Assembly (NCBI GenBank): GCA_963082975.1
Contig: OY720344.1
Coordinates: 9,535,580-9,599,579 of the forward strand
Source of the DNA: Labia minor
Lineage: Eukaryota > Arthropoda > Insecta > Dermaptera > Spongiphoridae
DNA: 64,000 nucleotides
Direction of reading: 5' to 3'
The translations under genes and the position numbers were made by a program. Below, one piece after another: positions 8,060 through 64,000 of this stretch (position 1 is its first letter; each line of letters opens with the position of its first letter). Under the pieces are notes generated by a model. It had not been told where the DNA came from. It saw nothing but the letters and a program-made list of their open reading frames with translations, and searched no databases.

Positions 8060-8308
8060 TCCATTTCCTCTTCCTAATGAGCTACATTTCTGAAAAGTTG
8101 GTAGAAAACTACGAATTTTGAATAATGCCCGTGTACCAAATTCCATTATTCTAGCTAAAACGGTTTTTCCGTAATCTTGTTTACACACACAGAGAGAGAA
8201 AGATAGACAGACATTTTTGAATTTTAGTGAAAATGACTCAGGGACCTTCAAAACGTATAAAATTATCAATCTCGACTCCAAAAATTTTCGTGATCCCATT
8301 ACTATCTC
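8060..8308 (+). repeat. family A repeat, 3' half
   Basis: Runs from the GAGCTACATTTCT block through CTAGCTAAAACGG and the ACCTTCAAAACGTATAAAA block to ATTACTATCTC, where it merges with the next copy. Confidence 0.8.
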
Positions 8309-8887
8309 TATCTCGCAAATTTGAATTGGAATAAATAACATAATATATTATATTTAAATTAAATTTAATTAATTATAAATTATAAATTAAAATTAATAAA
8401 TCATATTTATGAAACCAGTGCATGTTTGGCTCTTTGTTGATGGCACCACGTCACGTGTTGGCGCGTGAGATTTGCAGTGTTAAAAAATTAATTCTGGTAC
8501 TTTCAAGCTGAAATTATATATATAGCAGTTTTATACAATTTTTAATCATGTGAAAAACTATTACACATACATATTTATTTATTTTTACGGTCACTTTAGA
8601 GGAAAAAAAATCAAATCGTTGTAGGTAATGACCCTCTTCCGGTTGAGCTACATTTCTCAAAAGTTGATAGAAAACTACGAATTTTGAATAATGCCCATGT
8701 AGCAAATTTCATGATTCTAGCTCAAACCGTTTTTGAGTAATCTTGTCTACATACACACACAGATAGACATTTTTCTCAAACTTAGTGAAACTGATTCAGG
8801 AACCTTCAAAACGTATAAAAACATCAAAATCTCAACATCGAAAATTTTCGTGATCGCAATACTATCTCTGGCGAGATAGTAAAAAAG
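8300..8887 (+). repeat. family A repeat, near full-length copy
   Basis: Starts at CTATCTCGCAAATTTGAATT (the extreme 5' TGGAGTGTCTCC is missing) and ends at the stem-loop CTATCTC-tggc-GAGATAG plus TAAAAA. Internally it has a GC-rich CACGTCACGTGTTGGCGCG block (E-box CACGTG at 8452-8457). Confidence 0.85.
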
Positions 8888-13272: not shown

Positions 13273-14770
13273 GTTAAAAATTTTGTTAATTCAAAATAAA
13301 AAAAAATATGATTAAAAAATAAATTCATAAGAATAATATCACCTTAATCATTAAAATACATTCTTGATATATATATAAAATAACAGAAGCATGAAGAGCA
13401 TCCAAATGTTTTAGAGTTAACTCGACAACATCTAATTAAAGAATGGCTGATTATTTGATTCTGGTGGTCTTTCATCAGCCAATAGGTCGATTGAATGCAT
13501 GCTCAACACGAATCAATCATCTCTTCCCGTTTGATTGAATGATCAACTCGTGCACAAATCCAATTCTGGCAAAAGTTAAAACAGGAATCTTATCAGAGAT
13601 TATTAGATGAAGAAATTTTATATGGCCTAGAAAATTTGAACCTGATGCTCTCTATGAACTAATACAAATATTTTATTTCTAATTGATTAAAGATATGTAT
13701 ATTAGTTAATCAAGTTTAATTACTTAATAAAATACATTATCATTATCAGACATGTGAACATATATCATTTCAAGCAATTAATTTTTTTTTTTTAAAAAAA
13801 AAAACATTATTAAATAAGATTTTATATATTTCAAAATTCATTTTTTTAAAGTATTTATATTTACTTATTTGTTTAATAAATGTATTAATAAAATTATATT
13901 AAAGATAATTTGTATTTATTAATGTTGTTTATACTGAAATTTAAATTACCATAAGATTAATTTTATCTTCTCATGAAATGTGACTCATCTTGACAAACAA
14001 TAAAGTGTAGAAACTAATTTTAAATTTTTATCTTTACTAGACTAGTTGGCACTATATATAAGACAAAGTTTATATGACAACAGGTGATAAGTGGAGAGGT
14101 TCATTAAACCAATATAGAGAATAATCTCTTCAATTTATAGAATACTCCTTGGATATTGAATAATTTCAGTATTATTCAAATTATCTGGACATATTTAAAT
14201 CTATTCTATTATAACTTCTCAAATGCTGGTTAATAGTGATATTTTTTAGATGAAAACTATTTTAACCCTTATGTGAGATCTTGTAAATTAATTAAATACC
14301 TAAATAAATTAATAATATTAAAATTGTAATATAAAATAAAAAATAATAAATCAAGATTTATGACATTATTTGATTTAGTTATGAATAGTTATATTAGTCT
14401 ATGATTAGATTAATGTATTTAAATTTTAAAATTTTAAATAAAATTAATACTTAAATTATCAATGACCGATGAAGCTTTTTAATGAAATTAGACAAGTAAA
14501 AATAAATCAAATTTTAATATTTCATATATTAGCAATGTTAAAGACCTAAATTATAAATGATATTTTTGAAAGGATATGAAGAGATAGATTGAATTAAAAT
14601 GATCTTAGTAAATTGATTTAGAAATTTTAAATTTTAGAAGATTATGATATTTTCGATTGACAAAAAATAATTTCACATAAACAATTTTATTTTAAGTAAG
14701 GTTTGTTTTTATTTAATAAAATATCTTATAATTCGAATTAATTTACATTTATTCTTCTCAAATATATAAA
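13273..14770. other. AT-rich intergenic stretch
   Basis: No gene seen. 13440-13570 is slightly less AT-rich (GCCAATAGGTCGATTGAATG) but has no recognisable content. Confidence 0.5.
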
Positions 14771-14772
14771 TA

Positions 14773-14957
14773 CGAGTGCAGGTCAATAAGTCCGTGACTT
14801 TTTGAATTTCCTGTCTCTTAAATGAAATGACAACACTGCTCCTATCAGCAGCCAACTATCAGCTGACTCCTGTCGAAATTTTAACCAGCTGGCTCTTTTT
14901 TGTTTGATAATACAATAGCAGACTACCTCTCGATTTGTGAAGAAAATGGAAATTAGT
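14773..14957 (+). mobile_element. mariner element (second family), left part up to the transposase start
   Basis: Begins after TA with CGAGTG and then CAGGTCAATAAGTCCGTGAC, which recurs inverted at 17530-17554. The segment ends in ATGGAAATTAG (ATG at 14946), the first codons of a mariner transposase (MEIS...). The frame resumes 2.3 kb away at 17256. Confidence 0.85.
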
Positions 14958-15115
14958 TGGAGTGTCTCCACTCGACTATCTCGCAATTTGAATTGGATTA
15001 AATAACATAATATATTATATTTAAATTAAATTTAATTAATTATAAATTAAAATTAATAAATAATATTGGCTCTGTTAATGGCAGCACGTCATGTGTTGGC
15101 GCGTCAAGTTAAAAA
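14958..15115 (+). repeat. family A repeat, 5' part only
   Basis: TGGAGTGTCTCCACTCGAC, CTATCTCGCAATTTGAATTG and on to GTGTTGGCGCGTCAAGTTAA, after which similarity stops. The 3' stem-loop is absent. Confidence 0.85.
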
Positions 15116-15787
15116 TCCGTCCTTGCTTTTATACCCCTTTGTAATCTTCCATTCCCTTTTCAAATATAAATCATTAATAGTTAATTAATAGGAGAGATAA
15201 TAATTTAATTATTATTATTATTCCAAGGTATTCATTGGTGGGCGTTAAGAGGGGTCTTTATACAAGGTTAATTGACAAATTTTTAACATTTATTTTTGCA
15301 AAAATTTTAGTTTTAATTATGCATTTTTTCTAAAACTAAATATAGGCTATTTAAAATCAATGTTAATTGATATATAATTTAATTGAATGTAAATTTTAAT
15401 ATACATATGTTTCCCATATGAAAAAAATAAAAATTAAATTAATTTTATAAAATCTATTTTATAGAAGGATTAAAAAAGTTTATTAATTGCTAGGATATAT
15501 CAAATATATTTTTTAATATTTAAAATTAATATTTTAATTATATATAAATTGTTTTTTTGATAAAGTTAAAATATCCAATAAGGTTGAGGAAAGGAATATA
15601 AGGAGTTTTAATGAAAAATTCAAAAATTAATTTACTTATATACAAAAATATTTATTAAAATATAAAATTAAGAATACAATTATATTAATATAATATAATA
15701 TTTACATAGGATTGGAGAATAGTAATATTATATAGATTTTACATTATTTATAACAAAATAAAAATTAGATATTATATAAAATAATAA

Positions 15788-16102
15788 TTAAATTCTTAAA
15801 TTATAATAGTAATTTCTTTTTCTATGGACTACATTACTTGTTAAGTCCAGATTTCTTCTCCTTGATCTTCGACGATTAATCGGGTGATTGATCACCGTCT
15901 CGATGTCATCCTCGTTCGGCGGAATATTTTCTTTATTTGCCATTATATCTAAAAAATTGATGTCACCACCAACTAATCTTACCGGGGTTTCAATTCTTAT
16001 TGATTCATCGTGGAAAACGTCGAAATGTCTACTATGATGATAGTAATTGAGTCCTTCTTCAATGATATTGTGAAGAACATTCCACTCCTGTTTTAAATCC
16101 AT
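15788..16102 (-). CDS. small KEN-motif protein of unknown family, inside a mobile insertion
   Basis: An open frame of 104 codons on the minus strand. It starts at the ATG at 16102 in the context CAGAATGG and reads MDLKQEWNVLHNIIEEGL at the N-terminus. Around residues 56-64 is NKENIPPNED, a KEN-box-like motif with prolines just downstream, as in APC/C degrons of mitotic regulators. A basic RRRSRRR run follows, then a Tyr-rich end. I see no signal peptide or membrane segment. I do not recognise the family; a cell-cycle or nuclear role is only suggested by the KEN and basic motifs. Real-gene evidence: codon use is less AT-extreme than its surroundings, a TATA box and initiator lie 150-190 bp upstream, and AATAAA (minus) lies at 15651-15656. 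TTTTTTTTTTGATTTCAG just before the ATG looks like a splice acceptor, but I find no good donor, so it may be unspliced. It lies inside an insertion into a mariner. Confidence 0.6.
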   Translation of the reverse strand: MDLKQEWNVLHNIIEEGLNYYHHSRHFDVFHDESIRIETPVRLVGGDINFLDIMANKENIPPNEDDIETVINHPINRRRSRRRNLDLTSNVVHRKRNYYYNLRI

Positions 16103-16251
16103 TCTGAAATCAAAAAAAAAACAAAAATAATTAATGATATAGTAATTATAATAAAATGAAGAGGACCGATGAGGGAATCAATATTCAAGATTGTTTGGTT
16201 GTGTTGGTCAGAAAATTTCTTGAGAGCAACTTCTTGCCAAGAGAACTGAAC

Positions 16252-16288
16252 ACTGAATGAGTCTCAACACAAATTTTCTGTATATATA
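16252..16288 (-). promoter_or_regulatory. TATA box plus initiator for the KEN-motif gene
   Basis: Minus-strand TATATATA at 16288-16281. An arthropod initiator TCATTCAGT (16260-16252) places the start about 30-34 bp downstream of the TATA box. The predicted 5' leader is about 150 nt. The spacing is canonical for a focused RNA polymerase II promoter. Confidence 0.6.
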
Positions 16289-16699
16289 CTCTCTTTTTAA
16301 CAAAGGAATCCAATTTGCATGGGTCATACAGGTACCTTTTGTATTGTTATTTTGTTTTGACCCTTTGAATAGCCAACATTTTCAGGTAAATCTTTTCAAT
16401 TCAAAATAAACAAAAATTTGGAAAAAAAAAATATTTTTTTTCTTTCGTATAATTTCATAAATATAATTGAAAATTGTTTAGGCTATTTTTAAAATTTTGA
16501 CATTTTGTAATATTTATGACTTTGTTCAATTTTTCATCTATTGTTATTTATTTTTTTTTTCTATTACAAATTGTATCTATCCTTTCTAACAAAATACAAA
16601 TAATTTAAAAAACTAAAATTCATTGTTAAATGAACAATCCAAAAGGAATTTCTTAATTAAAATAAAATTTTAAAAATTGACAATGATAAAAAAATTAGC

Positions 16700-17254
16700 T
16701 GGAGAGTCTCCACTCGACTATCTCGCAAATTTGAATTGGATTAAATAACATATATTATATCTAAATTAAATTTAATTAATTAAATTATAAATTAAAATTA
16801 ATAAATCATATTTATTAAACCAGAGCATGTTTGCCTCTTTGTTGATGGCACCACGTCACGTGTTGGCGCGTGAAATTTGCAGGAAATTCTAAATATAGCA
16901 GTTTTATACAATTTTTAATCATGTGAAAAATTATCAAACATATATCTTTATTTTTACGGTCACTTTAGAGGAAAAAAAATCAAATCGTTGTAAGTAATGA
17001 CCCTCTTCCGGTTGAGCTACATTTCTCAAAAGTTGATAGAAAACTACGAATTTTGAATAATGCCCATGTGCCAAATTTCATGATTCTAGCTCAAACCGTT
17101 TTTGAGTAATCTTGTCTACATACACACACAGATAGACATTTTTCTCAAACTTAGTGAAACTGATTCAGGAACCTTCAAAACGTATAAAAACATCAAAATC
17201 TCAACATCCAAAATTTTCGTGATCGCAATACTATCTCTTACGAGATAGTAAAAA
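16700..17254 (+). repeat. family A repeat, complete copy (type copy)
   Basis: A 555-bp copy with every part: 5' TGGAGAGTCTCCACTCGAC, CTATCTCGC sub-terminal motif, AT-rich block, GC-rich CACGTCACGTGTTGGCGCG block (E-box 16857-16862), CTCAAACCGTTTTTGAG, short CA tract, ACCTTCAAAACGTATAAAA, and the 3' stem-loop CTATCTC-ttac-GAGATAG plus TAAAAA. The 3' stem reuses the 5' sub-terminal sequence inverted, the layout of DINE-1/Helentron-associated elements. Confidence 0.85.
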
Positions 17255-17557
17255 GTGAATTTTGTGTGCTCATTAAATTAATTTTTGTATAAAAAAACAT
17301 CACTGAAACTGAGTTTTTGCGCCGTTTCGTAACCGTGGACGAAACCTAGATCTACCAAAACCTAGTCAAAACAGTGGGTTTTTCGGGGTGAATCGGCATC
17401 AAAGATGTCCTCGACAAATATTATTATTTGGATGTGATAAAAAGAGAAACGTTGTACGATGTGTATAGAAGTCAAAGAGACTACATTGAAAAATAAAATA
17501 ATATTTTATTCAAAACCTGTGTTTCATTCAAAAAGTCACGGACTTATTGACCTGTTG
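17255..17557 (+). mobile_element. mariner element (second family), right part
   Basis: Continues the N-terminal frame (EFCVLIKLIFV, stop), then FLRRFVTVDET, the block with the first catalytic Asp (VDET), and remnants towards the C-terminus. It ends with the inverted TIR GTCACGGACTTATTGACCTG and TA at 17558-17559. Internal deletions and stops make it inactive. Confidence 0.85.
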
Positions 17558-17653
17558 TAAATATTTTGCCGTGAGAAAATGATATTTTAATAATAAAGAA
17601 AATTTAATAATTTAAAACTTGTATTTATGTCAGATGAAATAATTTATATCTTA

Positions 17654-17888
17654 GAGTCCGCCCCTTTTTAAGTCCAAAGGGAAAAAGCGGTTTGTTACTC
17701 AAACCATTTTAATTTTAAAATAATATTATTAATATTTAAATCTTAATAAATAAAAATAAAATGATTAAAATCTAGAAATAAGTTCTTATATATGAATTTG
17801 GGTGCGGTCTAGTTGTTATTTTACTCAAAACACATGGATTGACTAAAAAAACGATTTTTGCCTTTGGACTTTAAATAGGAGTGCGCCC
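17654..17888. mobile_element. MITE, possibly PIF/Harbinger-type
   Basis: Sub-terminal inverted repeat AAGTCCAAAGGGAAAAAGCG (17671 on) and, inverted, TTTTTGCCTTTGGACTTTAA. Both flanks carry TTA (17651-17653 and 17889-17891), the usual PIF/Harbinger target duplication. The outer termini match only partly. Non-coding, 235 bp. Confidence 0.55.
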
Positions 17889-17891
17889 TTA

Positions 17892-18872
17892 ATGAGATAC
17901 ATCTTATATGAACAAATTAATATTAAAAACTCCCTAATGTCTGTCCGTTCTTGTGATACTGTGTATTTTTAATTGTGGTTACTTGTTGTTATTTTTATGG
18001 AATTTTTAAAATCAAATTTCTACATAATATATGGTATACTGTATATAGATAACCATAGATCAAATGAATGGTACTTAAAACATGTGGTTAGGGAAGTTAC
18101 TGAATAAAATCATTTAAAGAGTAGTTTATAAGTTTCTTTCCTCTGAAAAATTTCAAATTATTCTTATTAAATAACAATAATAGTTATATTTATATTAAAG
18201 ATAATAGTAAAATCAATTTCTGAAATTGATTAGCTAAAATGTAAAATGGAATTTTTAACTTCTGTTTAATAACTCTTTTCAATAAAATTAATCAACTTTA
18301 GAATTTACAACCTTAATAATTATTTAAAATCCTAAATTATTCTTTTTTCCTTGTTGGTGAGATGCAATCAGCGGAGTATAAAGGGGAAAGAGCGCCAAAT
18401 TTAGAGGAACGCCCATATAAAAATAAAATATTTTTTATATTCATTATTTTTTAGAATTTATTAATTAAAATTGATTATTTTCCATGACACATTGATTTTC
18501 TTAGCAATAAATAAATTATTTTTACTTTAATAATTCCAAATAAAGGCCAGAACGCTAAATATTTTATTATTGACAACAAGAGATTGAATAGTTGTAATAT
18601 TATTTATAGGAAAACTATTTATATAGTCAGAATTCATAATAACTCAAAAAAAAGTTTAATAGACAAAAACAAGAAATTACTAATAAAAATAATGAAACCT
18701 AAGAATTTGTATGAAAGGGTGGCAAATTTTGTTTTGCCAGGGGCGCTTATAACCCTACAATCAGTTCTGGACAAATATGAAAATTAGTGTAAAAATATTC
18801 TCGTATATGAATATTTCTATTTTAACAAATTTTTATGATAATATACAAATAGAAGGTATGGAAGTTGATATA
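17892..18872. other. AT-rich intergenic stretch
   Basis: No gene recognised. Two short GC-richer spots at 18360-18420 and 18715-18765 contain GCGCC in opposite orientations and may be ends of an old element, but I could not align them as TIRs. Confidence 0.4.
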
Positions 18873-30650: not shown

Positions 30651-31305
30651 ACGATAGTAAGGGAGGTATTGTTTTCACACCAAATTTCACATGTGGAGAT
30701 TTTTACATATCTCCACGAATCATGCATTTTCTAAACAGAAAAAAGTATTTTTAGCATGATGTCTGTCCGTCCGTCCGTCTGTCCGTCCGTCTGTCCGTCC
30801 GTCTGTCCGTCCGTCCGTCCGTCCGTCCGTCCGTATAGATGTGTACAGCCTGAACGGCTCAACCGATTTTGATGAAATTTGGTATATTTACTTAATGCAT
30901 CAGTGGGATGAATTGATCAACTTTTGGTGCAATTCCGGAAACCGGAAGTGGTAGTATTAGCGATCGACGATAGGAAGGAAAGGGTTATTTTCACACCAAA
31001 GGAGATTTTTTTATATATCACCACGAATCATGCACTTTGTATTGGTTTTATCCTCGAGAAAAATCATATTTATTAGTTTTTTCTTGATTTAAAATTATAT
31101 GACGTCATCCAGCCATTCATGACGTCACAGTCTGGTCTTACATATATATTATAAATAAAATAAAATTAAAAATGTTTATGTTATATGCCTATCTGTTTTT
31201 TATTACATTAATAGATATATTAAAATTATTTGAAATTGTTTCTGTAGCTGGAAATTAACTTATTTCAAACAGTCGGTCGGTTCGGACCTGGCCACAGGTC
31301 AACTT
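30651..31305 (+). repeat. family B (DINE/Helentron-like) repeat, full copy
   Basis: 5' ACCGACCGACGATAGTAAGG; a (GTCC)n microsatellite (about 30767-30832); CTCAACCGATTTTGATGAAA; CATTCATGACGTCACAG; then an inverted copy of the 5' motif (GTCGGTCGGTTCGG) and a terminal stem-loop GACCTG-gcca-CAGGTC followed by AACTT. Sub-terminal inverted repeat plus internal microsatellite plus 3' stem-loop is the DINE-1/Helentron-associated layout. Other copies: 34385 and, inverted and split, 42477/44371. Confidence 0.85.
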
Positions 31306-32406
31306 ATTCTTGATGATGATACTATACATCTAGATATTTTTATTATGTATAATACTATATAAATATTAATTTAATTTTTTTATTATTCAAATTTTTTCCA
31401 ATTTACGGATATTAATCTGATATATTTTTGAATTGCAAATGAACAAATTCTCCGAGTCCGAAAAAAGAATAAAATATAATTTTATTGTTTTTACGTATGA
31501 CATGCTTTTCATCATTTATATACAAAATATAATACTTATTTCATAACTTTGCATACATCTTTAAATTATAATAAAATTTTATTAATTAATCAATACTATG
31601 TTAGTAAATTAATTTTATTACATTTCAATGTTATCAAATACCAAGTTAAAGTGAAAAGTTTATTAATTGATAAAAAAAAAAAGAAATAAATCATATATTT
31701 TATACGTAATTCACAAATAAATTCATTTTTTGTTTTTTTTTTGTTTAATTTATATTTTAGCCGTAAAATACCAGTTTGTTATTTATTTCATAATTTTATT
31801 TATTTATTTTTTTTAGTATAACTAACAATTTTATTATAATAAACTATTATTTAAGTTAATCGTAATTAAATTTAATAAATTTAAATATAAATTTATTTAT
31901 TACGAATATATTGTACAAATTTATTGACAAGTTCAAATATCGATAATAATTATTCAAATAAATAATAGTTCAAAATTTGGATCTAGAAATTAATGACAAA
32001 ATCAATAAGATTAAGGGAGTTATTATGTATAGATATATATATTTGTGCATGTTTTGTTCGAATTAATGCGTAGTTGGGTAGTTTTACATAGAGATGGAAT
32101 ATTAAAGGGATGACGATCAAATATATTCACACATGTCTCTCTCTCTCTATATATATATATACGATATAGGTATACGTATATAAATGAATAAATTATAACA
32201 AGGACATATTCGATTTTTATATTAATCTTTATTTTTGTTTTATACTTTTGAAAATATATCTTGTCCTTTCAATGTATTTTTACATAATATTTACTGGATA
32301 TGTCGATAAATTTATTATATTTAGTATTTTATATATTTATTAAATTAGTCAACTACCTAATATGTCAAACAAATTTTATATCAAATTATTATTGTTTTTC
32401 CCCCGG

Positions 32407-34384: not shown

Positions 34385-35022
34385 TTACCGACCGACGATA
34401 GTAAGGGAGGTATTATTTTCACACCAAATTTCACCTATGGATATTTTTAGGTACATATCTCCACGAATCATGCATTTTCTTAACAGAAAAAAGTATTTTT
34501 AGCATGATGTATGTCCGTCCGTCCGTCCTTATAGATGTGTACAGCTTGAACGGCTCAACCGATTTTGATGAAATTTGGTATATTTACTTAATGCATCAGT
34601 GGGATGAATTGATCAACTTTTGGTGCAAATCCGGAAACAGAAAGCGGTAGTGTTAGCGATCGACGATAGGAAGGGAAGGGTTATTTTCACACCAAATTTC
34701 ACATGAGGAGATTTTTTTACATATCACCACGAATGTATTGGTTTTATCCTCGGGAAAAATCATCTTCATTATGTTTTTCTTAATTTAAAATTATATGACG
34801 TCACCCAGCCCTTCATGACGTCACAGCCTTCTTATTATAATCACGGACAACGCCGGCTACTATATTATAAATAAGATAAAATTAAAAATATTTATGTTAT
34901 ATGCCTATCTGTTTTTTATTACATTAATAGATATATTAAAATTATTTGAAATTGTTTCTGTAGCTGGAAATTAATTTATTTCAAACCGTCGGTCGGTTCG
35001 GACCTGGCCACAGGTCAACTTA
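34385..35022 (+). repeat. family B repeat, full copy just upstream of FAS
   Basis: The same parts as 30651-31305 but with a much shorter GTCC tract (about 34513-34528). It ends in the GACCTG-gcca-CAGGTC stem-loop and AACTT. The end lies about 170 bp before the splice acceptor of the first FAS coding exon. Confidence 0.85.
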
Positions 35023-35192
35023 TTTTCTTTATTTCCAATGTTCACAATTTTTTTTAGATAGATATTTTTTAAATTTTCACATTTATGTAAAGACACATTT
35101 ACAATCTGTTTTAAAATTAATTCTTCTTATTATAATATTGTTTTTTTATTATATTATAAAAATCTGTAATTGAATATTTTATATGATTCCAG

Positions 35193-47540
<12,348 letters not shown>

Positions 47541-59363: not shown

Positions 59364-61910
59364 CTAAAAAACAAAAACAAAACAAAACAAAAATTATACA
59401 TTTGCAATAATTTTCTATTATAATTATTATTAATTATTAATTAATTGAGTTAAACTTACCTTGTGGTCCCTGGCAGACAAAGAGCGTCCAATTCCAGTAG
59501 CTGTAGTAGACGGTGTTGTTGTTGCAGTAGCCGATTCAGCTCCTGAATCTAAACTCGAACTCCCAAGAAGTCGACCCCATTTACTGGCACCACGTAAACC
59601 AGGACGTGAAGTTCCTCCGCTTGTTCCTTTACCTATGGATGCCGTTGTTGTGGCAATAGCTAACGTGCCAGTACTTGAACCGGCTGCTCCATCTTCAGTC
59701 ACGCATGCTAATTTTGTAGTACTTAAAACCCTAACCACAGATTTTGTCCCAGCATTGAGAGGCACTGCACTCAACAAATGGGGATGGGTTTCACTGTCTG
59801 TATCACTAGTACCCCCTTTCTCCACATCCGGTGGTGCCGGGGCTGAAGAACTTGAAGCGGGTGTCCTGTCACGACGGAATTTGCTAAAAATTTTACGCAC
59901 CAAATGATCTTGATTTTGATCTAACTGAGGTTCGTTTTTCCTCCGTTCCGCCAGCTCTTTTTCACGACGAACATCCGCTACTTTACGAAAAATCAACTGA
60001 AATTATAAAATTGTTCACATAATTAATAAGTAATTAATTTATAGATAAATATATATCATTAGAGATAATTATTTATAGAATGTTTTAAATTATTTTACTC
60101 ACTCTATGTCGTAAATTATATGTAAGAATCAAATTTCTTGCGAATGAATTGGCGAATGCTTGATAGAAGTCTAGTACTTCTAGCAATTTGTCTCGTTTTA
60201 TAGTGTGTAAATCACAATAAGTGAGGGCACGAACATTTGCTGCTGATTGGCCAATGGCAGTGTCTTTCCAAAAAGAATCACCAAATACATCACCTTTTCC
60301 TGATAAAAAAAAAAAAATTAAAGATTTTTTGCTTCATTAGTTAAACTTATATTTATATTTACTAAATAAGAGAATTTAAAATAATTGTAATAAGAAATTG
60401 TTTAATAAACTTAATAAATTAATTATAATAAATGATTTAAAAAAATTTTAATTAATCATTTGCTTTTAAAGATTCATTAAAAATTAAAATTGAACCATTT
60501 AGAGGAAGTTTAAAGCTCTCACGCTCAACCTTCTAATCTTCAATCTTTTAAACTACTACTACTACTACTACTAATTCTTTTTCTGGTACATGTATTGTAT
60601 TTAATGTAATGCAAAACATAATATTTTTTAAATCAACTATTTAACAATTTTCTGAAGATTGTTTTTCTGTTTATTTTAATATTAATTATTTACTAAATTA
60701 ATTATATGTGTTAATTTTATCTGTGTTGCTTGTTGAAGAAAAAAACATTGGCCTGTTTCCGCTTGCGTCCAACTAACATAAAAAACAACTTTTATTTTCA
60801 TAATTACTTTTTTAATGTTATCATCTATAAAATGTTAAGAATTTTATATATTTTCTTATTATTTTATAAAAATACATAATTTATAAAAAATATTATTATT
60901 ATAAGTACTTTTTCTTGTTATTCTATATTTGTGTACGAGGTCTGTTCAAAAGAAAAGGTAAATTTTGAATTATTTCGAAAGTATTTATTTATTCATCAAA
61001 ATTCATTTTGTCCCCTTCAAAGTAATTCCCCTTAGCATCTTCTAATCGTCTAAGCACTTCTGAAATGCACTTTTCGGTATGGCCATCAGCTCGTTCTTCG
61101 ATTCCGACTTTATCTCATCAATTGTGGCAAAACGCTTTCCTTTCATTGATATCTTCAGTTTTGGAAATAGGACAAAGTCGCAGGGAGCCAAATCTGATGA
61201 ATACGGTGGTTGAGGTATAATTACGGTGTTGTTTTTGCCCAAAAATCACCAATAAGCAATGATGTGTGAGCTGGTGCATTATCGTGACCGTGTTTTTTTC
61301 ACAATTTTGATCATTTGAGCCATATTGCTTCACCCAAACGTTGCATAACTTCCTTTTACTATTCCTTATTTTTTTAAGTAAAACAATCGAAGAACACACA
61401 AAACGTGACTAACTTTTTGAGTTGTCAAAAACAAACTACTAATCCAAAATGTCTGATAATGTCAACATATGAGAAACAATTGTGTATCAACATAAAAAGA
61501 AAAAAATTCGATAATCACATTTACACAGCCCGAGAAAATTCAAAATTCTTCTTTTCTTTTAAACAGACATCGTATATTTACTTATTTATTTACTTTATTT
61601 TTCTTTAGAAAAACACTGTACAAATATTGAAATTTGGTAATTGAAATGGAGACTGACCTAGAATTGCAACCACTTCATCATCTTGGATCACCTCGAGGGA
61701 CCCAGTTACAATAAAGCAGAGACTGTCGATTGACTCTCCGGTATGGTAAAGGAGATCGCCGGGGGCGCTATGCGACATGGTGAAATGCATGGCCAGTGCC
61801 CGCAAGCAGCCGTCACTTGCCAGCCGAAACGCCGGATGTTCATTAAATACTTTCCGATTCAGATGCACACAGATGTCAGCTTTCATGTCTTTGGGGCAAT
61901 AATTCAGCAC
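58602..61910 (-). CDS. eag: ether-a-go-go voltage-gated potassium channel, C-terminal part (4 exons; 5' exons beyond the window)
   Basis: Plasma-membrane K+ channel of the KCNH1/5 (Eag) subfamily. Exons on the minus strand: 61910-61658, 60299-60103, 59996-59460 and 59363-58602, with GT-AG junctions and phases 0/1, 1/0, 0/0 and 0/stop. Together they encode 582 residues and a stop. The first exon begins [20 protein letters not shown] and matches Drosophila Eag, as I remember it, nearly residue for residue through the cyclic-nucleotide-binding homology domain, which separates it from the Erg and Elk subfamilies. PAS, voltage-sensor and pore exons (GFG filter) are not found up to 64000, so the preceding intron exceeds 2 kb. 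No break in the frame is seen. Confidence 0.95.
59460..59996 (-). CDS. eag exon with calmodulin-binding region and low-complexity linker
   Basis: 179 codons. [20 protein letters not shown] and [13 protein letters not shown] line up with the two C-terminal calmodulin-binding segments known in mammalian Eag1. The remainder is Ser/Thr/Ala/Gly-rich and probably disordered, ending [10 protein letters not shown] at the donor. The linker is much less AT-biased than the rest of the window. Confidence 0.9.
60103..61910 (-). CDS. eag cyclic-nucleotide-binding homology domain, two exons
   Basis: 61910-61658 carries [39 protein letters not shown] and [16 protein letters not shown]. 60299-60103 continues [40 protein letters not shown], and ends [15 protein letters not shown]. 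In mammalian Eag1 the Tyr-Asn-Leu segment occupies the nucleotide pocket as an intrinsic ligand; YNL is kept here. The intron between the exons holds a mariner remnant. Confidence 0.95.
60304..60935. other. eag intron, AT-rich part
   Basis: Contains an (ACT)n microsatellite at 60551-60572. Nothing else recognised. Confidence 0.5.
60936..61572 (-). mobile_element. mariner element, internally deleted, in an eag intron
   Basis: Flanked by TA (60934-60935, 61573-61574). TIRs CGAGGTCTGTTCAAAAGAAA and, inverted, CGATGTCTGTTTAAAAGAAA. On the minus strand it keeps [19 protein letters not shown], with the third catalytic Asp (D34D type), and [15 protein letters not shown]. The 637-bp length shows a large internal deletion. 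Same family as 1364-1983. It is antisense to + and parallel to eag, and lies wholly within the intron. Confidence 0.88.
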
Positions 61911-64000
61911 CTGGTACATGATCCGACACATCCATCCACAACAGAACACACCCCCAATCACACAGAAGGATACATAGATACAAAGTTTAAGGAAAAATAG
62001 AAAAGCAAACTAAATATTTAAACATAACACACATTACATTTAATATTATCAATGTCAGAGAAAATAATAAAACTAGATAACTAATGAAATAAATAAAAAG
62101 AATATTCCTCTTGATATAAATTAATTTAAGTTTTATTTTAACAAAAAATTTTTAGTACCTCCGGCAGCGTTTTGCATCCTGTGGGGCGCCCCCCCTGGGG
62201 GGGCGCGAGACTGATGTAAGGGGGCGCGAATGTATTAGAACCAATTTTTTTTCTAATATCTATAATAATCTATAATATGTTTTTGCTTAATTGAGTGTGT
62301 GTGGGTGTGTGATTTTGTAGTCCATTAAATAAATTACTATATTATGTGAGTATTTATGAAATTAGAAGAATTAACGAGGGCGCAAGAATTTTTTTTAAAA
62401 AAAGGGGGGCGCCGGTACAGAAAAGTTGGAAACCACTGACTTACGGTATGGAATATTCTTTTAATTATTTACAGAAATAAAAATATATTAATGAAACACT
62501 CAACTAATAAATTTGTTCTTAAAATGCATATTTTATAATACATATTCTTTAAAAAAGTTATTTATTTATTTTTATGAAATTTTGATACAAAATTGTAATT
62601 TCCAACAAAAAAAATGTAGATTCGTTTAAATTTAAAAATATTATATAGCAACCACAAAAAATTTTGGTGATGAAATATTTTAAAATTTTGTAATTTTAAT
62701 ATTTAAAACAAAAAAACAAAAAAAAAACACATATTAGACAAATTAATTAATTATCCAATAATATATTATAATATCACTCAATTTGAAGTCTCTCCAAGAT
62801 TATGCATTTTAAGTTAATTGTATAAAAGTGAATTGGTTACTATCCAACTATCACAGTGTAAGGTTCTAAAGGTGATTTAGAAGCTATGATGCATATATTT
62901 TTAACTTAAGCGAGTTTTTCGTTATTCAAGCTTTTCACAAAGATGATAACATATATTTATATTAAAAGCTATTATATGTAGAATTGTTTTTCAAAACTTG
63001 CAAAAAATAATTTATCTAATGAATAAATTAAAAATATATTATTTTATTAAACTATATTATATATATATTATATATTTTTTAAAAATATAATGCAATGAAC
63101 TTTTTTTCTAATCTAAAAACTTGATATAATATAATAATAAGAAACTACCATGCATTATTTAATTGATTTTATTTCATCTTAATATAAAATTTAAGTTTAT
63201 TTTTTGTTTTAGATTTTTATAAGATATTATATTAAATTGATATTTATTATGGACTATTTATAATTATTAATTTTTTTTTTATATTTTTATTAAATTAAAA
63301 AGATATTCCATATTCTATATTAAAAACTAAAAAACAAAATTTTATATTATATAGTAAAAATATTTGATCTTGTTTTTTAAACGCTAATAGAATTTAATAA
63401 AAAAAAAATTTCAAAATTTTCAAAATAATAAATCAAAACTTTAGTAATTTAGTTTAATATGAATATGTATATCTTAGAATAATATTTATTAAAAATTACT
63501 ATTTAAATGATTTAAAAATTATTTTTTTTAAAAAAAAGAGTAATCAATGTGCAAATGATAACGTTTCATAAACATAAACACTAAAACCAACTAAAACACA
63601 TTTACTATATAAACTAGACATCAATTTTCTTCTTGTTTTTTTTTTAAATATAATATTAAAAAATAAACTTCATGTCGTTCAAGCAAAGAAATTCTATATA
63701 ATTAAAACATATATCACATACATTGAATGCATAAAATTTTTGATTCAATCGGGATTTTAATTCGCTTGAACTTTATTTATACATCCCCTCAAAAATAAAA
63801 AAAATAAATAATTAGAAACAGAGATTACAACTGAAATGAAATCAATATTATTTTGGTAAAAGAAAACTAAAAAGATAAATGATAATGAATGTTGGACAAG
63901 TTGACAAAATATATAATTTAAATTTTAAACTTAAATAATCTCGTTAATTGTTTTTTTTAATTATTTTGTTAATTGTTTTTTTTAATATGTTATTGATTTA
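61911..64000. other. eag intron (incomplete), AT-rich
   Basis: The acceptor TACCAG is at 61916-61911. No upstream eag exon is seen before the window ends. Apart from the MITE at 62165-62438, the sequence is AT-rich and featureless. Confidence 0.6.
62165..62438. mobile_element. hAT-type MITE in an eag intron
   Basis: A 274-bp GC-richer element with ends CAGCGTTTTGCATCCTG and AAAAGTTGGAAACCACTG. The flanking 8-mers ACCTCCGG and ACTTACGG differ at two positions, consistent with an aged duplication. GGGGCGC runs occur in opposite sense near each end. Confidence 0.65.

Follow-up and report, generated by a model that had tools for sequence, protein, structure and literature searches.

A complete small gene in a dispersed Helentron/HINE-like cassette, probably acquired by read-through capture

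The window analysed here is a stretch of 64,000 nucleotides (C1:9535580–9599579) from an AT-rich genome of 604 Mb in 71 contigs. At 14773–17557 it contains an element which, in agreement with the sequence-only reading, we take to be a Tc1/mariner transposon, interrupted by a cassette in which a truncated piece of an abundant repeat (family A), a segment of unrelated DNA and a complete family A copy follow one another in the order that had been noticed from the letters alone. The 104-codon ORF, TATA box, initiator and poly(A) signal ascribed to the unrelated segment are all in place; at the left edge of the segment the join lies closer to 15102 than to 15116. The features of the locus are given below (L060 is a donor-like locus described later in the text).

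14773–14952, no strand assigned: left half of a deleted mariner, including the 29-bp inverted repeat 14779–14807 (comparison of relatives)
14953–17249, minus (proposed polarity): whole captured-gene cassette, non-autonomous, of rolling-circle type (shared joins, mariner empty site)
14953–15101, minus: truncated family A copy, proposed 3' terminus (comparison with family A)
14960–14984, minus: proposed 3' terminal hairpin (14960–14973) and 3' subterminal repeat (14975–14984)
15102–16694, minus: captured host DNA with a complete gene in sense with the proposed element, mostly homologous to L060
15651–15656, minus: poly(A) signal AATAAA, present in L060 too
15788–16102, minus: 104-codon ORF with a KEN box at residues 57–59
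16252–16260, minus: initiator TCATTCAGT, common to L060
16280–16289, minus: TATA box of the captured gene (TATA or a variant in 23 of 23 full copies aligned)
16695–17249, minus: complete family A copy, proposed 5' part of the cassette (comparison with family A)
16695–16726, minus: family A 3' end inside the cassette, which replication is proposed to have bypassed when the gene was captured, with the subterminal repeat at 16717–16726 and a CTAA terminus
17230–17249, minus: proposed 5' terminus adjoining a T-run, formed by the palindrome ACTATCTC-loop-GAGATAGT of the subterminal repeat
17250–17557, no strand assigned: right half of the same mariner, with the inverted repeat 17526–17554 (comparison of relatives)

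Elsewhere in the window exons resembling a fatty-acid-synthase-type gene extend over 36676–46732 (one of them was tested in Pfam), and a weak match below the cut-off points to cyclic-nucleotide-binding-like exon(s) at 61605–62009.

The terminal inverted repeats typical of Tc1/mariner elements are present at both outer ends of the interrupted transposon and are perfectly complementary over their 29 bp. Used as a genome query, its right half found the window and 39 other places with 77–84% identity (40 scored out of 1,776 candidate places), and nine of these relatives (L051–L059) were fetched. In eight of them the insert site is uninterrupted and reads, with small variations, ATGGAAAAAAGTGAATTT, while L057 gave no match at the site. 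When the two halves from the window were joined, the alignment spanned the join in all nine relatives (76–83% identity, not always end to end), so the halves belong together; an origin from different mariner copies had been named as evidence contrary to the capture. The proposal that the mariner was split by a subsequently arrived insert of about 2.3 kb is thus borne out, and the insert-free copy that had been asked for exists. Since the relatives are only about 490 bp long, the mariner of the window was already internally deleted; its frame is indeed split, but most of this frame is deleted and the insert divides its start only. The insert site of the window reads ATGG-AAA-TTAG...GATAGT-AAAAA-GTG, and the relatives carry an A-run at this place, corresponding to a T-run on the minus strand. 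The insert entered this A-run, and therefore its unambiguous core is 14953–17249 with ambiguous A's at each end, rather than 14958–17254 as had been read. Attribution of the motif AAATTAG at the left join to the mariner itself was rejected, the relatives having A-runs there.

Family A is represented in the genome by 10,824 exact copies of a 28-mer, against none in a backward control. Read on the minus strand, it has the T-run with ACTATCTC-loop-GAGATAGT at one end and GCGAGATAGT followed by GAGTG-GAGA-CACTC, CTAA and TTT at the other. Its subterminal inverted repeats are perfect over 10 bp (ACTATCTCGC / GCGAGATAGT) in copies with the loop TGGC and 9 bp long in the copy of the window, where the internal 3' hairpin (16695–16726) is also imperfect; most other copies that were read have GAGTG there. 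The set of canonical Helitron features (5'-TC, 3'-CTRR and insertion between A and T) is not present: the minus-strand 3' end is CTAA followed by T, but there is no TC at the opposite end, TTTTACTATCTC, and in the mariner the insertion went into an A-run. Because of this failure of canonical ends the earlier label "Helitron-like" is best narrowed to Helentron/HINE-like. According to the accessible text of PMC4067079, HINEs have a palindromic subterminal repeat 2–4 nt from the 5' end, a second repeat 38–60 bp from the 3' end and a palindrome 8–35 bp from the 3' end, and occupy T-rich targets flanked by T's; their subterminal inverted repeats are 12–15 bp long in mites and 13 bp in DINE-1. Family A shares with the elements described in those parts of the paper the palindromic repeat a few nucleotides from one end, the second repeat with a hairpin near the other, a T-rich target, no target duplication seen and very high copy number, but its subterminal repeat is shorter (9–10 against 12–15 bp) and its 3' repeat lies closer to the 3' end (approximately 22–25 against 38–60). 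The 3' palindrome is GAGTG-GAGA-CACTC at 14960–14973 on the minus strand, and the T-rich target is the A-run of the mariner relatives seen from that strand. No target duplication was seen at the one empty site examined, that of the mariner, where a 2-base duplication of A's is possible.

Since family A fits the Helentron/HINE anatomy on the minus strand only, the cassette is probably oriented along this strand, as is the gene, and the polarity assigned to it earlier is most likely the reverse of the true one: the terminal hairpin lies in what was called the "5' end", and what was called the "3' stem-loop" corresponds to the palindromic subterminal repeat of the 5' side. The original polarity implies that a plus-strand element which had lost its 3' part took up the gene in antisense and was ended at the next complete family A copy. 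The order of a 5' piece, host DNA and a complete copy is equally compatible with such use of the next terminator, and the palindrome 17230–17249 is the stronger hairpin (z = −4.5, against −2.3 for the proposed 3' hairpin, with 8 of 200 shuffles as good). However, this scheme requires a preceding loss of the 3' end of the starting element, and the HINE anatomy available from PMC4067079 fits the minus strand better, so we regard it as unlikely. As for a possible source of enzymes, 104 matches to the Helitron_like_N profile were found in the genome. No RepHel element with family A ends was found among the two of these 104 for which part of the upstream side, 1.4–1.5 kb, was read. Seven matches had equal E-values, six of them lying in open frames of 1,651–1,652 codons and one in an open frame of 1,537, and the copy that was read, at C9:43365333 (L124), has N-terminal peptide repeats. 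In the window two further family A copies (8067–8885) are fused head-to-tail at the subterminal repeat, as if these repeats had recombined.

With the cassette region as a genome query 40 candidates were scored (the first look gave 10,962, presumably mainly family A) and 30 loci were fetched; with the window itself set aside, 29 best matches remained, and 16 of them begin at one and the same base, position 14950 of the window. Together with L011, L016, L017 and L018 this gave 34 copies read with flanks, 23 of which have the full gene segment. The left join is common to 24 of them and absent in 10, while a right join is common to 30, in a short form in 24 and a long form in six, and was scored in neither form in L017, L039, L042 and L046; both joins are present in 21 copies. 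Since the same composite recurs across the genome, it is far beyond chance. Junction-adjacent flanks differ everywhere, none being shared among the 23 left and 19 right ones compared, and AAATTAG is present at 19 of 23 left junctions. The search for other copies with the same ends, suggested beforehand, has thus been productive, and a single capture followed by mobilisation of the product as a unit is the simplest account of shared joins with differing flanks. Six copies of the long form (L044, L047, L048, L016, L018 and L011) retain about 85 bp more host DNA adjoining the complete family A copy, and therefore the copy of the window represents a derived, shorter subfamily. The proposed capture and the landing in a mariner are both supported, but the capture is older and did not take place here, the window holding one of dozens of descendants.

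Some copies are grouped. Twelve ORF rows are crowded into 4.5 Mb at C1:115.2–119.7 Mb, and seven of the twelve begin with MAFK, which suggests local re-copying, and identical ORFs are found at nearby places in the pairs L022/L045 and L108/L109. A tandem array at C5:46.73–46.77 Mb, mostly of about 9.8-kb units, contains a broken gene copy and, encoded by the same strand, a degenerate Helitron Rep domain. This clustering, the nearby identical pairs, the array with its broken copy and the density of family A in the genome are what one would expect if two family A copies had inserted separately on either side of the gene and the whole had spread by segmental duplication or unequal exchange. Such an origin is highly improbable given that no junction flanks are shared (most clustered copies were, however, read without flanks), that the internal joins are shared and that the empty site in the mariner is clean. 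At two gene copies, L046 and C2:11.45 Mb (L126, L127; 371 bp per side were read at the latter), family B stands where family A was expected, so that family A is possibly not the sole carrier; a second carrier and a later replacement are both possible explanations of these flanks. Family B is an abundant repeat of about 170 bp, present in the window at 31140–31314, 34861–35034 and 42475–42642, and two of these three copies contain the palindrome GACCTGGCCACAGGTC.

A donor locus free of family A flanks had been proposed as a check of the capture, and a donor-like one was found. L060 (C1:48089211–48093540, or C1:48.09 Mb) encodes a 110-codon homologue of the captured gene, and its homology extends over the promoter and both flanks (15127–15173 and 15303–16676 of the window); there is no match to family A within its 4.3 kb. 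Its identity to the cassette, averaged over 40-base windows, is 0.69 and rises to 0.85–0.95 at 16591–16650, at 16331–16410 upstream of the TATA box, at 16231–16270 around the initiator, at 15771–15810 around the stop codon and at 15591–15650 on the poly(A) side. The extra segment of the long form, about 85 bp, also aligns to L060 (Smith-Waterman score of 69, against 43 for the best of 500 shuffles). At the other edge L060 reads GGATTTTTGACG-TGAGC, the cassette TTGACG-CGCCAACAC and family A ACG-CGCCAACAC, with 3–4 bases in common, and the cassette join near 15102 accordingly reads as a microhomology join of 3–4 bp. Comparison of the cassette consensus with L060 gave omega of 0.17 and dS of about 1.1, which points either to a paralogous relation of L060 to the captured gene or to an old capture. 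A near-identical donor gene was not found, and we regard L060 as a donor-like paralogue. L060, the shared joins and the empty mariner site together support the claim that a complete gene was captured with its promoter.

The gene could instead be native to the transposon, family A being its deletion derivative and L060 a domesticated or decayed copy of the element. The long stem that separates the cassette clade in the ORF tree (82 cassette copies, with L060 and L061 set as the outgroup) and the coding constraint in the spreading lineage would agree with it. Nevertheless, L060 has the gene, its promoter and flanks and yet lacks family A within 4.3 kb, a distant paralogue with 35% identity resides in a tandem array of about 6.9-kb units, one side of the gene segment joins the middle of family A, and approximately 100 ORF loci stand against 10,824 family A ends, which makes a transposon-native origin very improbable. 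Several copies on C2 branch near the base of the cassette clade.

In the protein search of the genome with the ORF all 136 candidates at E <= 10 were scored. Counted by eye, 82 rows span at least 100 of the 104 residues with 87–100% identity, and 81 of these 82 near-full-length rows have no internal stop. Altogether 88 loci were read, most of them without flanks, namely 81 of the 82 (C62 was left out) and seven partial rows. Of these 88, 72 retain the 104-codon frame exactly, five are intact with an in-frame indel, two are open with a changed C-terminus and nine are broken, which gives an intact ORF in 77 of 88 loci. More distant relatives have identities of 69, 64, 61, 51 and 35%. The last of them forms the array of about 6.9-kb units at C2:33.10–33.28 Mb (L122, L123), where most rows have an open frame of 247 codons. 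Nine proteins, including four from cassette copies, were aligned; the columns N56, E58, N59, P61, D65, D66, E68, V70, N72, P74, I75 and Y99 are invariant, and eight of the nine, including one 35% paralogue, possess the KEN box, a motif that acts as a degron in APC/C substrates and would be a putative one here. A reading of RRNLDL (RxxL) as a D-box was rejected, as it is absent from L060 and L061. AlphaFold2 predicted the ORF protein with a mean pLDDT of 50, and only the first N-terminal block exceeded 70. Searches of Pfam and PDB with the ORF returned nothing credible (a PDB match with E of 0.067 was taken as noise), Rfam gave no match over 14000–18500, and no relative of the ORF was found in IMG/VR. 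A 20-base pattern of the ends hit one IMG/VR contig, phage-like by eye, with the palindrome alone in common, and this viral link was treated as chance. An intron ending with TTTCAG before the ATG was also considered; no clear donor site is visible by eye, and this ending is absent from L108, L109 and L114.

To estimate selection on the ORF, variants were counted in the 72 intact frames, after removal of 16 loci in which the frame was broken or differed in length. The mutation spectrum seen among the changes in the ORF gave an expected N:S of 3.2 : 1. Variants private to one copy gave 74 N : 26 S (omega of 0.88), while those shared by at least two copies gave 53 N : 47 S (omega of about 0.35), and the difference is significant (Fisher p = 0.003). 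Over the 88 loci together, relative to the consensus, shared variants came to 58 N : 48 S with a binomial p of 1e-6, and private variants to 82 N : 31 S with a p of 0.38. One true private stop was registered versus seven expected, and no true shared nonsense change versus about 11 expected; two shared "stops" that appeared in the count proved to be two-base codon changes read singly, and the frames are open at those loci. Each of the eight frameshifting indels among the 88 loci is confined to one locus. Since shared variants are constrained and private ones nearly neutral, the dispersed copies do not seem to descend from disabled ones. Badly broken copies may have been missed in this analysis because the query was an intact protein. 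A parsimony count on an ORF tree, for which two identical duplicates were removed as well, gave omega of 0.39 for terminal and 0.35 for internal branches; taken literally, the terminal value would mean constraint on each copy, against the 0.88 of private variants. Sharing of variants between copies is mosaic, which suggests recombination, and recombination, inflating the number of terminal changes, could explain this discord.

The copies could also be young neutral cargo with the ORF intact simply for want of time. The near neutrality of private variants, which amount to about 1% per copy, is what such cargo would show, and five rows of the C5:46.73–46.77 Mb array in the search table have a common stop, that is, a broken copy did multiply, although locally. 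The ratio in shared variants, the lack of shared nonsense changes and the failure of any frameshifting indel to appear in two loci contradict it, and we consider this explanation rather unlikely, while retention of the ORF in source copies may have been ensured by its use in the host or by a benefit to the element.

Based on these data we consider it quite probable (about 0.85) that the insert is a copy of a non-autonomous Helentron/HINE-like family that arose by read-through capture of a gene. A complete family A element would have resided in a T-run, with a small host gene downstream of it, and rolling-circle replication, having bypassed the element's own 3' end, would have continued in the sense direction through promoter, ORF and poly(A) signal until it stopped at a truncated family A 3' end (about 150 bp here) beyond the gene, with the join near 15102. 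The product would then have been moved as a unit, presumably by an unseen RepHel element, to dozens of places including the T-run of the deleted mariner. Read-through would be preferred here to template switching; the minus-strand order of a complete element, a bypassed 3' end, a gene in sense and a second 3' end is that of the read-through model in the available text of PMC4778049. There the bat Helitron HelibatN3 carries the NUBPL promoter and Helraiser performs read-through, and the likeness consists in a bypassed 3' end and in downstream host DNA with a promoter, transduced and amplified. HelibatN3, however, has the canonical TC...CTAG ends, which family A lacks, and took the promoter, six codons and a splice donor rather than a whole gene. 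Silkworm Helitrons, in the part of PMC3789558 consulted, are likewise insect rolling-circle elements with pieces of host genes in many copies; they have TC/CTRR ends, their fragments were found by BLASTX, and no selection test was seen in that text. For HINEs the available text of PMC4067079 describes gene fragments, such as those of histones in eight copies in Culex, capture being rare in the paper's own set, and mentions that in Drosophila HINE-like elements occur close to the breakpoints of duplicated functional genes. In the cassette considered here, by contrast with the fragments, the gene is complete, has its promoter and poly(A) signal and is intact at 77 of the 88 loci read.

In the literature searched, as far as its text was accessible, Helitron-type capture concerns mostly fragments and promoters, and among the fragments, promoters and Drosophila duplicate breakpoints found there was no HINE that carried a complete gene and was itself present in numerous copies. 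The gene of the present cassette occupies dozens of loci whole and together with its promoter. It is doubtful, but can be imagined, that the small and probably disordered KEN-box protein, expressed in a cell-cycle-timed manner, favours copying of the element, the cassette then being a two-part selfish unit of which only gene-intact copies become founders. A single genome offers a donor-like paralogue, the joins left by the capture in two subfamilies of the cassette, an empty site and the means to test selection within the family, and since all of these can be read together, the feedback of a captured gene on the success of its carrier becomes directly askable. It matters in this respect that, judging by the variants of the ORF, the lineages that spread seem to have kept the gene working.
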